The notes below the pieces were generated by a model, which made no database searches, was not told the origin of the DNA, and worked only from the letters and a program-made list of their open reading frames with translations. 64,000 nucleotides of DNA, from the NCBI RefSeq assembly GCF_001468465.1, contig NZ_LNSA01000001.1:62001-126000 (forward strand), given 5' to 3'. A program made the translations under genes and the position numbers. Source of the stretch: Sphingopyxis sp. H115 (GTDB lineage Bacteria > Pseudomonadota > Alphaproteobacteria > Sphingomonadales > Sphingomonadaceae). Shown one piece after another: positions 18,725 through 50,655 of this stretch (the stretch's first letter is position 1; each line of letters starts with the position of its first letter).

Positions 18725-18800
18725 GGGCCTGTAGCTCAATGGTTAGAGCTGGCCGCTCATAACGGCTAGGTTGCGGGTTCGAGTCCTGCCGGGCCCACCA
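18725..18800 (+). tRNA. tRNA with CAU anticodon, probably tRNA-Ile2
   Basis: A 76-nt cloverleaf with encoded CCA: acceptor GGGCCTG/CGGGCCC, D arm GCTC..GAGC, anticodon arm with loop CTCATAA, T arm GCGGG TTCGAGT CCTGC and discriminator A. The CAU anticodon fits elongator tRNA-Met or tRNA-Ile2, in which the C is changed to lysidine by TilS. The overall sequence resembles bacterial tRNA-Ile2 more than tRNA-Met in the acceptor and anticodon stems as I remember them. It is not an initiator, since the first base pair is G-C and the anticodon stem lacks three G-C pairs. Confidence 0.92.
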
Positions 18801-20434: not shown

Positions 20435-20514
<80 letters not shown>

Positions 20515-35724: not shown

Positions 35725-38016
35725 ATGGCGCAATCCTCTTCCCTGACTTTCGAAACGGATTCAGAGGTCGAGGACGTACGCTCGGGCTTCTGGCGTTTTG
35801 CCGCACCCGAATATTACACGCTTGCGCTCATCATCAGCGTTGCGATCGCGACCTATGTGTTCGTAACGGGTGATGCGCAGAGCGAGCGACTGCTGACGCC
35901 CGCGCTCGTGGCAGCGATCATGGTCGCCAATCTAGTGCCGGCGATGGCACTGATCGTGCTCATCGGCAGCCGCATTGCCCGCGCCCGCGCGGTCCGGTCG
36001 ATGGCGGGCGGCAACGGTCGTCTCCACGTCCGGCTTGTCGCGCTCTTTTCGTTGATCGCGGCGGCGCCGACCCTCCTCGTCGTGATCTTCGCCTCATTAC
36101 TGTTCCAGTTCGGGGTCGATTTCTGGTTCTCGGATCGCTCTCGTGGCATGTTCGAAAATGCAGCGAGCCTCGCAGAAGGCTATTATCAGGAAAACGAGCG
36201 CCAAGTCGGAGCCAATACATTTGCGATGGCGGCGGATCTGGGCAAACAGCTGAGCCTTGTGCCGATCGATAATCCGAAGTTCGGCAACTATTACTTTCAG
36301 CAGGTCGTGGTTCGCAGCCTCAATGAATCGGCGGTCATCGAGATCGGGGGAGACGGTGTCGCGCGCACGGCGGCGGCCATCAATCCTGACGACCGGGCGG
36401 CCGAAAATCGGCTGAATTCTCAGATGATCCGTCGCCTCAACGCCGGTGAAGATATCGTCGTCATACGACAGGCTAACCGGATTGAAGCCGCCGCGCGTTT
36501 ACCCGGCACTGACCGTGCCTACGTCTACGCCTCGCGCGACATCAATGTTCCGGGTTTTCAGCAATCGGCACGGGCGGGCGCCGTTCTCGCCGACTATAAT
36601 AATTTGTTCGAGCGATCCCAACAGCTCCAGTTGCAATTCAATGGTGCGCTCTATCTGGGCTCGCTTCTCCTCCTGGCGCTCGCCGTTATTGCTGCGATCG
36701 TCGTTGCCGACCGCATCGTTCGCCCGCTCGGCACGCTGATCGGGGCGACGCGGACAGCCGCTGGCGGGGACTTGTCAGTCCGCGTGACGCCACCGGCGCG
36801 CGACGACGAGATTTCGGTGCTGACACGCGCCTTCAACCGGATGACCGAGCAACTGGAAGGGCAGACCGGTGCACTGGTCAACGTCAACGAACAGTTGGAG
36901 GCGCGGCGCAGTTTTATCGAAGCGGTGCTGAGCGGCGTCTCGTCGGCCGTGATTTCGGTCGATGCCGATCACCGCATCCTGCTCGCCAATGCCGCAGCCG
37001 AGCGGCTGATCTGCCAATCAGCCGAATGCCTGACCGGGCGGCCGCTTGCCGACGTCGCGCCCGAATTGGCGCAATTGCTGACCGGCGACGAGCGTGAGGC
37101 GATCGTCCAACTCGCTCGCAAGGATGCCGAGCCCGCGACGCTGGCGGCCAAGGCGGTCGCGCAGGGCGACGGTTTTGTCCTGAGCTTCGAGGATATCACG
37201 CAGCAATTGCTAGACCAGCGCCGTGCCGCCTGGTCCGATGTCGCGCGCCGCATCGCGCACGAGATCAAGAACCCGCTCACCCCGATCCAGCTCGCCGCCG
37301 AACGACTGCAGCGCCGCTTCGGCGACAAGGTCGAGGACGACGCCGCGACGTTCCGGAAGCTCACCGACACGGTGATCCGCCAGGTCCACGACATGCGGCG
37401 GATGGTCGACGAGTTTTCAAGTTTCGCGCGAATGCCGAAGCCGACCTTCGGGGTCGAGGATGTTCGCGACATCGTGCGGCAGGCGGTGTTCCTGTTTGAA
37501 GTGGCCAAGCCCGACATCGTCTTTGCGATCCGTACCGAGGACGAAATCGAACCACTCGTTTGCGACCGTCGCCTGCTGTCGCAGGCGACAACAAATATCG
37601 TCAAAAATGCGGTGGAAGCGATTGAAGAAAAGGCGAAAAACTCGGAAGGTATGCCCGTCGGACACGTCGATGCCGAGCTCGCGATGGGGCCGGGCGGCGA
37701 ATTGCTGATCCGCGTGACCGACGACGGCATTGGGCTTCCGGAAGCGCGCGATGCCATCGCCGAACCCTATATGACGACGCGGCAGGGCGGCACGGGGCTC
37801 GGCCTTGCGATCGTCAAAAAGATTGTCGAGCAACATTATGGCGAACTCGAATTTTCGGACAATCCGGCCGGGCAGGGGACGCGCGTGACGCTTACGCTCT
37901 ATCCGGATCGGTTACGGCCACTGGCGGGACGTGGCGGCGAGGCCGGCACGGGACAGGGCGAATCGGTTCCCGGACGCATCCGGAATCGGCAGGACAGAGA
38001 AGATCATGGCGCTTGA
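35725..38016 (+). CDS. ntrY: Membrane sensor histidine kinase NtrY
   Basis: NtrY is the membrane partner of NtrX, tied to nitrogen and redox/microaerobic control. The 763-residue protein has membrane helices in the first 130 residues, a periplasmic sensory region up to about residue 310, another helix, a HAMP domain (VADRIVRPLGTLIGATR), a PAS domain, a HisKA domain ([21 protein letters not shown], split) and a complete HATPase domain with NIVKNAVEAIEE, TDDGIGLP and GGTGLGLAIVKKI. The ATG giving MAQSSS is used; an ATG 30 nt upstream is also possible. Its stop overlaps ntrX. Confidence 0.94.
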   Translation: MAQSSSLTFETDSEVEDVRSGFWRFAAPEYYTLALIISVAIATYVFVTGDAQSERLLTPALVAAIMVANLVPAMALIVLIGSRIARARAVRSMAGGNGRLHVRLVALFSLIAAAPTLLVVIFASLLFQFGVDFWFSDRSRGMFENAASLAEGYYQENERQVGANTFAMAADLGKQLSLVPIDNPKFGNYYFQQVVVRSLNESAVIEIGGDGVARTAAAINPDDRAAENRLNSQMIRRLNAGEDIVVIRQANRIEAAARLPGTDRAYVYASRDINVPGFQQSARAGAVLADYNNLFERSQQLQLQFNGALYLGSLLLLALAVIAAIVVADRIVRPLGTLIGATRTAAGGDLSVRVTPPARDDEISVLTRAFNRMTEQLEGQTGALVNVNEQLEARRSFIEAVLSGVSSAVISVDADHRILLANAAAERLICQSAECLTGRPLADVAPELAQLLTGDEREAIVQLARKDAEPATLAAKAVAQGDGFVLSFEDITQQLLDQRRAAWSDVARRIAHEIKNPLTPIQLAAERLQRRFGDKVEDDAATFRKLTDTVIRQVHDMRRMVDEFSSFARMPKPTFGVEDVRDIVRQAVFLFEVAKPDIVFAIRTEDEIEPLVCDRRLLSQATTNIVKNAVEAIEEKAKNSEGMPVGHVDAELAMGPGGELLIRVTDDGIGLPEARDAIAEPYMTTRQGGTGLGLAIVKKIVEQHYGELEFSDNPAGQGTRVTLTLYPDRLRPLAGRGGEAGTGQGESVPGRIRNRQDREDHGA

Positions 38017-39385
38017 TATTTTGATCGTCGACGACGAACGCGACATCTGCGACCTCGTCGCAGGGGTCATGGAAGACGAAGGCTATGAGGCGCGCACCGC
38101 CTCCGACAGCGATTCGGCGCTCGAAGCGATCCGCCAGCGGCGCCCCTCGCTTGCGCTGATCGACGTCTGGCTCCAAGGCTCGCGGCTTGACGGGCTCGGC
38201 CTCGTCGAGGCGATAAAGGCGTTCGACCCAACGTTGCCGATCATCGTGATTTCGGGGCACGGCGGGCTCGACACAGCGGTGGCGGCGATCCGGCGCGGTG
38301 CGTTCGACTTTATCGAAAAGCCGTTCGAGGCGTCGCGCCTGCTCCACCTCGTCGCGCGCGCGACCGAAAGCGAGCGGCTGAAATTCGAATATGAGCAGCT
38401 GCGCGAAAAGGCGGGGCCGTCAGACGAACTCACTGGCACGAGCGCGGCGATCAACAATGTCCGCGCGACGTTGAAGCGCGTCGCGGGGACAGGAAGCCGT
38501 GTGCTGATCACAGGAGCGCCGGGCGTCGGCAAGGAGGTCGCCGCGCGCGTCCTCCATGGTTGGAGTGGACGGCAGAATGCGCCGTTCCGCGTCATTTCCT
38601 CGGCGCGCATGGATCCTGAAACGGTCGAGACCGAATTATTCGGGTCGGAGGCGGAGGACGGTTCGATCCGCGTCGGGCTGCTCGAACAGGCGCACGGCGG
38701 CACGCTGTTTCTCGACGAGGTCGCCGACATGCCGCTCACGACGCAGGGAAAAGTCCTGCGTGTCCTCACCGACCAGAGCTTCACGCGCGTCGGGGGGCGC
38801 ACCATGATCCGCGTTGATGTGCGCATCATTTCGGGGTCGGCGCGCGACCTGATGACCGAAATTGCCGAAAGCCGGTTTCGCGAAGATCTGTATTATCGGC
38901 TCAACGTCGTCCCGGTGCATATCCCGCCGCTGCGCGAACGGCGCGACGATATCGCGAGCCTTTGCGACCATTATATTCGCCGCTACGCCGCCGATCGCCG
39001 CGTTCCGCCGCCCGAAATCAGTTCGGAGGCGATGGCCGCGCTCCAGGCGCATGAATGGCCCGGCAACGTCCGCGAACTCAGGAACGTCATCGAGCGCGTA
39101 ATGATCCTGGCGCCGAGCGCCCGATTGAACCGGATCGACGCCGACATGCTGCCCGCCGAACTGGTACGGGGAGGGGCAGATATCCTCCCCAATTCGGAAT
39201 CGATCACCGCCATTCCGCTCAAGGAGGCGCGCGAGAATTTCGAACGCGAATATCTGCGTATCCAGATCAATCGGTTTTCGGGCAACATCTCGCGCACTGC
39301 TAGCTTCATCGGGATGGAAAGATCGGCGCTGCACCGCAAACTGAAACTTTTGGGCCTTACCGAGAGTTCGGACGGTGAAGGCTGA
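38006..39385 (+). CDS. ntrX: Response regulator NtrX
   Basis: NtrX is the cognate regulator of NtrY. The 459-residue protein has a receiver domain (ILIVDDERDI, Asp in LIDVWLQGSRLDG near residue 53, KPFEASRL), an AAA+ domain with Walker A GAPGVGKEV and Walker B GGTLFLDEVAD, and a Fis-type HTH at the end (SRTASFIGMERSALHRKLKLLG). Where NtrC has GAFTGA, this protein reads SEAEDGSIRVGLLEQ, so the sigma-54 contact loop is missing. This fits the known alphaproteobacterial NtrX type, which probably does not work through sigma-54. Start overlaps ntrY by 11 nt. Confidence 0.95.
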   Translation: MALDILIVDDERDICDLVAGVMEDEGYEARTASDSDSALEAIRQRRPSLALIDVWLQGSRLDGLGLVEAIKAFDPTLPIIVISGHGGLDTAVAAIRRGAFDFIEKPFEASRLLHLVARATESERLKFEYEQLREKAGPSDELTGTSAAINNVRATLKRVAGTGSRVLITGAPGVGKEVAARVLHGWSGRQNAPFRVISSARMDPETVETELFGSEAEDGSIRVGLLEQAHGGTLFLDEVADMPLTTQGKVLRVLTDQSFTRVGGRTMIRVDVRIISGSARDLMTEIAESRFREDLYYRLNVVPVHIPPLRERRDDIASLCDHYIRRYAADRRVPPPEISSEAMAALQAHEWPGNVRELRNVIERVMILAPSARLNRIDADMLPAELVRGGADILPNSESITAIPLKEARENFEREYLRIQINRFSGNISRTASFIGMERSALHRKLKLLGLTESSDGEG

Positions 39386-39504
39386 CGGCTTTGCGCTAGA
39401 CGTTCCTTATGGTTTGCCGCATAGTGGGGCGGCAAAGAATGTCAAAGATGCCGGGTCTACCGAGCATCGAAACGCGGCTTCGCCGCCAAGAACAGGAGGC
39501 AAAT

Positions 39505-40008
39505 ATGTCCGATAAGAATCAGAATCTCCAAGATCTTTTCCTCAATGCTGTGCGCCGCAGCAAGACCCCGGTGACCATGTTCCTGGTCAAGGGCGTCAAA
39601 TTGCAGGGCATCATCACCTGGTTCGACAATTTCTCGTTGCTGCTTCGCCGCGATGGGCAGTCGCAGCTTGTCTACAAGCATGCGATTTCGACCGTGATGC
39701 CGTCGCACGACTTCGATCTTGCGCTGCTCGGTGACAATCTGCGCGAGGCGCCCGCCGGCAGGGGAAAGGCGCTGCAGGATGTTTTCCTGAACGCGGTGCG
39801 CCGGTCCGACGAATCGGTGACGATGTTCCTCGTCAACGGCGTGATGCTGCAGGGCGATATCGTGGCGTTTGACCTGTTCTGCATGCTGCTCGAGCGCGAG
39901 CGGCAGGTGCAGCTCGTCTACAAGCACGCGATTTCGACGGTTCAACCAAACGGGCCGATCAACCTGACCGACAATGGCGAGGCTGACGGCGAAACGGACG
40001 ACGCCTGA
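39505..40008 (+). CDS. hfq: Tandem (double Sm-domain) RNA chaperone Hfq
   Basis: Hfq normally is a protein of 75-100 residues that forms a hexamer and pairs small RNAs with mRNAs. This product has 167 residues and two full Sm domains, at about 5-67 and 87-149, joined by a linker of some 20 residues, plus an acidic tail. Both copies keep the proximal-face residues (Q-D at 9-10 and 91-92; YKHAIST at 57-63 and 139-145) and the rim arginines (17-18 and 99-100). On the distal face the first copy has GVKLQG, the second GVMLQG, so the usual Lys is Met at 114. The ATG follows AGGAGGC. Gene order (ntrX-hfq-hflX) is the standard one, so this is the main hfq gene. Confidence 0.96.
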
Positions 40009-40067: not shown

Positions 40068-41357
40068 GTGCCCGAATGGCATAGCCAGCGCCTCGCGCGC
40101 GACCTTGACGCACGCGCCGAGGAGGCGAGGGGTCTTGCGCTCGCGATCGGGCTTGACGTCGTTGCTGTCCACACGCTGCGGCTCCGGCAGACACGCGCGG
40201 CGACGCTGCTCGGCGTCGGGCAGATCGACGCGATCGCGCCTGACATCGCAGCAAAGGGTGTCCAACTCGTCGTTGTCGACGCTGCGCTCAGTCCGATCCA
40301 GCAACGCAATCTCGAAACTGCTTTCGGGACCAAGGTCATCGATCGCACCGGGCTGATCCTCGAAATCTTCGGTGAGCGCGCCGCGACCGCCGAAGGACGG
40401 TTGCAGGTCGAGCTTGCACATCTCGACTATCAGGCGGGCCGGCTCGTGCGGAGCTGGACGCACCTCGAGCGCCAGCGCGGTGGCTTTGGCTTCCTAGGTG
40501 GCCCCGGCGAAACGCAGATCGAGGCCGACCGGCGGATGATCCGAAACCGCATGGCACGCATCCGTCGTTCGCTCGACGATGCGCGGCGGACGCGCCAGCT
40601 CCAGCGGTCGAAACGCCAGCGCGCACCCTGGCCGGTGGTCGCGCTCGTCGGCTATACCAACGCTGGAAAATCGACCTTCTTCAACCGCTTGACGGGAAGT
40701 GACGTCATGGCGGAGGACATGCTTTTTGCAACGCTCGACCCGACGATGCGCGAAATCGGGCTGCCGGGCATCGAAAAGGCGATCCTGTCGGACACCGTCG
40801 GGTTCGTGTCCGACTTGCCGACGCAACTCGTCGCCGCCTTCCGCGCGACGCTCGAGGAAGTGACGACCGCCGACCTGATCGTCCACGTCCGCGACATCGT
40901 CCATCCCGACAGCGAAGCGCAGTATGACGATGTGCGCGCCATATTGGATTCGCTCGGCGTCAACGGTCCGCAAGACGACGGGGAGGGCGATGCCCCCGCC
41001 GCGGTTCCGCAGATCGAAATCTGGAACAAGATCGATACCGCCGATGCCGACGCGCGCGCGGCGATCGAGGAGATGGCGGCGCGGCGGCCCGACGTCGCGG
41101 TCATTTCGGCGGTAACGGGCGAGGGAGTCGAGGCGGCGCGCGTCCTGATGGCATCGCAACTGACCGCGCAGCACAAGGTGCAGCGCATCTATCTGGGCTA
41201 TGGCGAGGGTGAGGCGGCGGCGTGGCTCCACGCGCGCGGCGAGGTTCTCGCAGACGAGCCGCAGGGCGAAGGCCATGTCCTGACCGTCCGCCTCGACCCG
41301 GCCGACAACGCACGGTTCGAGCGGTTATGGCCGGCTAAGAACGCTCCGCGGCCTTGA
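40068..41357 (+). CDS. hflX: Ribosome-associated GTPase HflX
   Basis: HflX is a GTPase that binds and splits stalled ribosomes. The protein has the N-terminal HflX domain with GVGQIDAIA and RTGLILEIF, the GGxGFxGGPGETQIEADRR motif, and the G domain with GYTNAGKST (G1), TLDPT (G2), DTVGF (G3) and NKID (G4). Coordinates use the GTG at 40068, but the conserved fold appears to begin earlier: in-frame codons upstream (NEDEVTRGAAALVVVPEW) resemble HflX N-termini and run back to a CTG/ATC overlapping the hfq stop at 40005-40008, without any ATG, GTG or TTG. The 3' end overlaps mazG by 23 nt. Confidence 0.93.
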   Translation: MPEWHSQRLARDLDARAEEARGLALAIGLDVVAVHTLRLRQTRAATLLGVGQIDAIAPDIAAKGVQLVVVDAALSPIQQRNLETAFGTKVIDRTGLILEIFGERAATAEGRLQVELAHLDYQAGRLVRSWTHLERQRGGFGFLGGPGETQIEADRRMIRNRMARIRRSLDDARRTRQLQRSKRQRAPWPVVALVGYTNAGKSTFFNRLTGSDVMAEDMLFATLDPTMREIGLPGIEKAILSDTVGFVSDLPTQLVAAFRATLEEVTTADLIVHVRDIVHPDSEAQYDDVRAILDSLGVNGPQDDGEGDAPAAVPQIEIWNKIDTADADARAAIEEMAARRPDVAVISAVTGEGVEAARVLMASQLTAQHKVQRIYLGYGEGEAAAWLHARGEVLADEPQGEGHVLTVRLDPADNARFERLWPAKNAPRP

Positions 41358-50565: not shown

Positions 50566-50655
50566 GGACAGGTGGCCGAGTGGTTTAAGGCAGCGGTCTT
50601 GAAAACCGCCGTGGGTGCAAGCTCACCGTGGGTTCGAATCCCACCCTGTCCGCCA
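50566..50655 (+). tRNA. tRNA-Ser (UGA)
   Basis: A 90-nt class II cloverleaf with encoded CCA: acceptor GGACAGG/CCTGTCC, anticodon loop CTTGAAA with anticodon TGA, a long variable arm (GTGGGTGCAAGCTCAC), T arm GTGGG TTCGAAT CCCAC and discriminator G, all typical of tRNA-Ser. Confidence 0.97.

Follow-up and report, generated by a model that had tools for sequence, protein, structure and literature searches.

A tandem Hfq with two Sm domains in one chain in Sphingopyxis and its family, with fixed differences between the halves and a proposed three-chain ring

The sole hfq gene of Sphingopyxis sp. H115 encodes a tandem Hfq of the Sphingomonadales type, in which one chain carries two Sm domains, D1 and D2. 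The gene lies in the window analysed here, a stretch of 64,000 nucleotides of contig NZ_LNSA01000001.1 (Table 1). The patterns of conservation in the two halves and the predicted fold are best explained by one tandem duplication of hfq, after which three chains would assemble into a pseudo-hexamer with three functional rims and a distal face of alternating character. The probability of this reading is estimated at about 0.6.

Both PF17209 matches in the hfq ORF exceed the cut-off of 27 bits (101.6 and 88.9 bits), and the two domains are read in a single open frame with zero stops. The YKHAIST sequence of the Sm2 motif and the proximal Q-D are present in both halves, and DES follows the second RR, as the first-pass annotation of the window had stated. 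That annotation had also described two complete Sm domains in one chain and a single hfq, and both statements hold. No PF17209 match beyond the two of the hfq ORF was found in the H115 genome (4.49 Mb in 63 contigs, 100% complete and 0.68% contaminated), and thus no second ordinary hfq elsewhere in it. A frameshift or assembly artefact, named in that annotation among the refuting conditions, is ruled out by the one open frame, by halves of 62% identity (mean of D1 versus D2 within the same protein, 115 relatives) and by the double-match genomes retrieved from the window's family, in which both domains lie in one ORF in 54 of 54 cases, the H115 genome excluded. The top relative, the Hfq of Sphingopyxis sp. 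JAI128, is 98% identical across all 167 residues. The neighbouring ORFs are taken, from family knowledge, to be ntrX and hflX. The tRNA genes at 18725-18797, 20435-20508 and 50566-50652 are the window's only Rfam matches at gathering score.

Table 1. Features of the hfq locus in window coordinates
Feature	Position	Strand	Evidence
hfq, 167 residues and stop, two Sm domains per chain	39505..40008	+	ORF translation, profile search
Shine-Dalgarno sequence AGGAGG of hfq, 5 bases upstream of the ATG	39494..39499	+	sequence reading
First Sm domain D1, residues 1-66; ancestral-like, with full basic rim, K29 and K32	39505..39702	+	PF17209 101.6 bits; conservation
Codon of K29 (E. coli N28), apparent gain in D1	39589..39591	+	K in 115/115 D1; N in 115/115 D2 and 38/38 single-domain Hfq
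Linker, residues 67-90; without in-frame ATG, GTG or TTG in the window protein	39703..39774	+	codon scan
Second Sm domain D2, residues 84-151 by two-sequence profile, overlapping the linker; rim reduced, M114 for K32	39754..39957	+	PF17209 88.9 bits; conservation
Codon of M114, D2 position 32 (E. coli K31)	39844..39846	+	M in 114/115 D2; K in 38/38 single-domain Hfq
Acidic C-terminal tail, residues 149-167	39949..40005	+	115 relatives: median charge -5, median length 15
ntrX (presumed), upstream neighbour of hfq, tree marker	38006..39385	+	
hflX (presumed), downstream neighbour of hfq, tree marker	40068..41357	+	

A survey of the order covered 396 genomes, the H115 genome included, with 313 in the window's family and 83 outside it. 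A hand count showed two PF17209 matches in 300 of the 313 family genomes and one match in the other 13, bearing out the suspicion that the double protein is common to sphingomonads; beyond the retrieved genomes described above, the doubles among the 300 are classed by the two-match count alone. The named doubles fall in NCBI's Sphingopyxidaceae, Sphingobiaceae and Sphingomonadaceae. The 83 genomes outside the family comprise 76 with a single match, six without any and G001 with two. Surveys of the class (190 genomes, 157 with a PF17209 match) and of the phylum (120 genomes, 79 with a match), which partly overlap, each showed a single double-match genome outside the family, G454 and G603, respectively. 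Neither looks like a carrier of tandem Hfq: the two matches of G603 sit on different contigs, and for G454 the single frame listed, for one of its two matches, has 109 residues. In G001, which belongs to another family of the order, the one match retrieved (L126) is a single-domain ORF. All three genomes have separate hfq genes by their look, as judged on that one retrieved match and on the listed frames and contigs. The tandem form was seen only in the window's family within the order, class and phylum samples. Elsewhere in the phylum, the listed members of two families (f162 and f171) have no Hfq match in genomes at least 96% complete.

The locus set comprises 182 loci, of which two (L001 and L002) are the window's own and the rest are 134 doubles and 46 singles. 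Conservation was counted over 115 different doubles, the window protein excluded, and 38 different singles. The 80 loci from the tandem-query search were left out of the frequencies because they had been selected by similarity to the query.

A tree of HflX and NtrX was built from 93 chosen rows of the 182 and 867 columns by a quick method, with SH-aLRT as the sole support. The 67 doubles in it form one group with a support of 100, and the domain-number label requires one change. Thirteen single-domain members of the window's family (L113-L125) branch outside the doubles, with a weak root placement of L113 (support 57). In the outgroup, 11 of the 13 rows are represented by HflX alone, and the NtrX match in L151 and L152 may be a paralogue. 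Since the state of the outgroup is single-domain, one gain with zero losses is the simplest history among the sampled rows. In this simplest history, hfq would have been duplicated in tandem in one event, inside the sphingomonad family, and repeated origin or loss of the tandem form is unneeded on the tree. The one-domain Hfq proteins of L113-L125 have acidic tails and offer natural before-duplication comparisons. An NtrX match is present at every locus of the window's family except L158, and also at the 8-kb outside loci L151 and L152. The 3-kb loci outside the family (L003-L018 and L020-L032) have HflX beside hfq and lack an NtrX match; their gene order may differ.

The tree of the two halves suggested by the first-pass annotation was built from 26 chosen doubles and 24 singles. 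D1 and D2 each form one group, with supports of 92 and 99, respectively, in a tree of 64 columns in which 48 of the 71 inner branches are unresolved. Because each half forms one group, homogenisation between the halves is not indicated, and the domain tree rules out gene conversion between D1 and D2.

Comparisons of the aligned halves showed that 29 of the 59 core positions hold the same residue in at least 90% of both D1 and D2, and that six (29, 32, 39, 42, 44 and 65) are fixed in opposite states at 90% or more in each half. Positions follow D1; in the alignment the E. coli numbers are one lower through 48 and two lower from 50, given an assumed start of the E. coli Hfq numbering. Position 29 (E. 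coli N28) is K in every D1, and N in every D2 and every single-domain Hfq. At position 32 (K31), D1 has K in 112 of 115 proteins and R in the other 3, and the D2 and single-domain states are those of Table 1; the distal difference between K32 and M114 that had been read in the window protein is correct and family-wide. Position 65 (V63) is M in 109 of 115 D1 and in all 38 singles, and Q in 114 of 115 D2. Similarly, position 39 (S38) is W in 112 D1 and all 38 singles and A in 105 D2, and position 42 (Q41) is N in 110 D1 and 37 of the 38 singles and L in 105 D2. At position 44, S is found in 114 D1 and C in 105 D2, and the singles are mixed (27 C, 11 S). In 109 of the 115 doubles, positions 29, 32 and 65 carry the signature KKM in D1 together with NMQ in D2. 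D1 thus appears to have fixedly gained K29, and D2 to have fixedly exchanged K32 for M, W39 for A, N42 for L and M65 for Q. These differences arose once, on one stem branch, so that the 115 proteins are not independent origins. Their conservation in the alignments shows constraint, not the proposed function.

Q9, K58 and H59 (E. coli Q8, K56 and H57, which we take to be proximal-face residues) are retained by 114 or more of the 115 proteins in both halves. Q34, Q54 and T63, presumably distal-face sites with the E. coli counterparts Q33, Q52 and T61, are kept in at least 112 of 115 of each half. Judged by Q9, K58 and H59, the uridine pockets seem to be largely preserved at every ring place, save for N42L (105 of 115) and a frequent D10E in D2 (45 of 115, against 69 with D). 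These alterations beside the pocket of D2 are a point against the preferred reading.

The two halves differ in their variability. The mean identity across the family (115 relatives) is 0.754 for D2 and 0.878 for D1, and the mean identity to single-domain Hfq is 0.650 for D2 and 0.811 for D1. The greater variability of D2 would be expected if the fusion merely tethers subunits, for assembly or dosage, and the differences between the halves are drift in a redundant copy. The D2 and tail of three loci from one genus, L180-L182, look degraded and point the same way. However, M32 and Q65 of D2 are near-invariant (114 of 115 each) and K29 of D1 is found in 115 of 115; drift does not keep derived states fixed. 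In the 32 Sphingopyxis-type loci (L033-L064), the dN/dS ratio is 0.024 for D2 and 0.027 for D1 (Nei-Gojobori, on the means of 496 pairs). With a ratio no higher than that of D1, D2 is strongly constrained in these loci, and decay of D2 in Sphingopyxis is ruled out by this value. Tethering with drift is a rather unlikely account.

The L180-L182 proteins (genomes G094, G151 and G153, part of genus g12) have a D2 of 45-56 bits and a linker of 16 residues; the acidic tail is gone and D1 is divergent as well. This degraded-looking tandem Hfq may have lost its function or gained a different use.

The basic rim is reduced in D2. Averaged over rim positions 17, 18, 20, 48 and 49, the charge is 5.00 in the singles, 4.97 in D1 and 1.10 in D2. 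In the window, D2 keeps RR, but position 20 is D and position 48 is E; the earlier statement that both halves keep the rim arginines stands for the pair itself and not for the rim around it. In the crystal structure of Caulobacter Hfq, according to the accessible text of its report (PMC6561178), the tip of the acidic tail lies against the rim residues R18, K19 and K21, with adjacent-subunit contacts both modelled and seen and with K21 itself making no contact to the tip. The same text describes a tail glutamate that bonds with R49 and S39 in the neighbouring subunit, and tails that additionally pack on neighbouring hexamers. Caulobacter R18, K19, K21, R49 and S39 correspond to positions 17, 18, 20, 48 and 38 here, and were counted as kept when K/R or S/T. 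All five are kept in class in 112 of 115 D1 and in 38 of 38 singles, and in 0 of 115 D2; 105 of the 115 D2 domains have two or fewer of them. By these residues, the basic rim and the tail-holding residues are mostly gone from D2, and D1 has retained both. The D1 rim would be retained just as well if RNA were the sole reason for keeping it. Most relatives have an acidic tail behind D2, with at least three D/E among the last eight residues in 109 of 115. The linker has 21-25 residues in 112 of 115 relatives and a charge near neutral. It is a bit longer than the Caulobacter tail, given as 15 residues in the accessible text (PMC6561178), and thus fits neighbouring places in one ring.

The AlphaFold2 monomer was predicted from an alignment of 39 near-relative tandem proteins (the window protein and 38 from the 80 tandem-query loci). 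The best of five models has a mean pLDDT of 86.2 and a pTM of 0.82, and the mean pLDDT values of the other four are 85.8, 84.7, 79.2 and 69.3. The model consists of two units of one helix and five strands (helices H8-19 and H90-101). Since the pTM, taken here with no control, is above what one domain could give, it suggests that D1 and D2 are packed in a defined way within the chain. The best Foldseek match of the model is Caulobacter Hfq (6gwk, rmsd 0.8 over 66 columns), which is also the nearest solved sequence to both D1 and D2. Single Hfq chains among the 50 Foldseek matches listed cover 60-69 columns with query-length TM-scores of 0.36-0.40. The sequence search gave no solved tandem Hfq; the 35 distinct solved sequences that it matched have 63-114 residues.

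Six chains could also form two stacked rings joined by the linkers, with the six D1 domains in one ring and the six D2 domains in the other, as both halves hold the ring-core residues and share nearly half of the core positions. Such stacking would force the D2 tails onto D2 rims, in none of which the five contacts are complete, and would not use the defined packing inside one chain that the pTM suggests. It is judged unlikely, slightly more so than tethering with drift. An ordinary ring of six D1 domains, with the D2 domains hanging outside as regulatory tails, would suit the closeness of D1 to single-domain Hfq. It leaves the uridine-pocket and ring-core residues of D2 superfluous in a loose appendage and is at odds with the invariant change N29K in D1 alone, which makes it very improbable. 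Least probable of all is that the halves are additionally made separately, by an internal start or proteolysis, and enter mixed rings: at least one in-frame ATG, GTG or TTG occurs in the linker of 86 of 115 relatives, but none in that of the window protein or of the other 29, so an internal start is not universal.

In the preferred three-chain ring, the tandem-duplicated Hfq would have become one chain occupying two adjacent ring places, and three chains would close a pseudo-hexamer with D1 and D2 alternating. Judging by conservation, Q9, K58 and H59 in all six places would still allow the 3' U-tails of small RNAs to bind the proximal face. The full basic rim and the tail-docking residues would be present only at the three D1 places. 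Each D2 tail would dock onto the D1 rim of the next chain, and the linker between D1 and D2 would follow the route of the former, lost D1 tail. The outcome would be three annealing stations with one acidic lid apiece. On the distal face, D1 would contribute two lysines at positions 29 and 32 (K29 and K32) and D2 none (N and M). The ring would still contain six such lysines (three chains with two each, against six subunits with one each in an ordinary ring), in a pattern repeated thrice rather than six times. Since the total is unchanged, the lysines would be redistributed rather than lost. The distal face would then prefer mRNA segments whose A-rich period is doubled, or have fewer strong sites.

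The more specific proposal is an obligate three-fold 3:3 ring in which only alternate places anneal, each gated by the tail of the preceding chain, and in which the distal face reads a doubled A-rich period with the lysines moved to one half. It is put forward tentatively, at somewhat less than even odds. Mutants of E. coli Hfq bear on the preferred reading as a whole. In the accessible text of a preprint (PMC12262471), K31A left 28% of the wild-type RIL-seq chimeras and R16A almost none; earlier reporter assays had shown a mild effect of K31A, and regulatory activity was partly retained with R16A. With such mixed effects, the corresponding losses in half of the ring places could matter or be tolerated.

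The tandem architecture, its occurrence in Sphingomonadales and the three-chain question have been in the literature since 2010. In its accessible text, the report of Yang et al. (2010, PMC2877685) describes ZMO0347 of Zymomonas mobilis with two Sm-like domains in one chain, the architecture of the window protein, notes the same for six other Sphingomonadales and raises the question of whether three chains form a ring. Unlike the present analysis, that account was found, in the text available, to contain no division of labour, single origin or tail and rim pattern. What appears to be new is the fixed division of labour between the halves and the way in which it fits the tail-rim mechanism. The first-pass annotation knew of no functional study; such work exists. 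The available text of PMC2877685 ascribes a role in stress tolerance to hfq from an insertion mutant of Z. mobilis, further mutants are described in PMC9797736, with related work in PMC5770649, and in Sphingopyxis granuli TFA SuhB acts on thnR in an Hfq-dependent manner (review, PMC6563040). As far as the accessible text of these four sources goes, the two Hfq domains were not separated. In PMC7546472, also on Z. mobilis Hfq, domain-level wording was not found. Among the papers listed by the literature search, none was a structural or domain-level study of tandem Hfq, which is weak evidence of absence, as subscription journals lie mostly outside the coverage of the search.

Among known systems, Caulobacter crescentus Hfq (6gwk) resembles the tandem Hfq in the short acidic tail on the rim of the adjacent subunit (PMC6561178, accessible text), but has one domain per chain and six like subunits. 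E. coli Hfq (1hk9, 3gib and others) has counterparts of Q8, K56, H57, Q33, Q52 and T61 in both D1 and D2, but differs in its single domain, in K31 in each subunit and in a longer tail. Burkholderia, with hfq and hfq2, likewise has two Hfq sequences per genome, but in two genes rather than one chain, and Novosphingobium aromaticivorans is listed with two hfq copies in the same 2012 paper (PMC3474761, accessible text). We infer that the tandem protein was meant. The listing reportedly goes back to a 2002 survey by Sun and colleagues. Eukaryotic Sm/LSm hetero-rings, also described in PMC2877685 (accessible text), are built of seven separate, non-identical chains in a fixed order. Their non-identical subunits and fixed order are like those of the proposed ring, whereas the separate chains and the seven members are unlike the tandem Hfq.

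A mutation in an ordinary Hfq strikes all six subunits together, which makes it difficult to learn how many rims, tails or distal sites are needed per RNA pair. A ring with probably three places of each kind, kept in most sampled genomes of the family, makes this question of stoichiometry directly testable. If the proposal is true, the family would have an Hfq with a fixed 3:3 stoichiometry and its own rules for the choice of small RNAs and mRNAs. The small-RNA rules of E. coli may then not transfer to Sphingopyxis, Novosphingobium, Sphingobium and Zymomonas, which figure in bioremediation and ethanol work.
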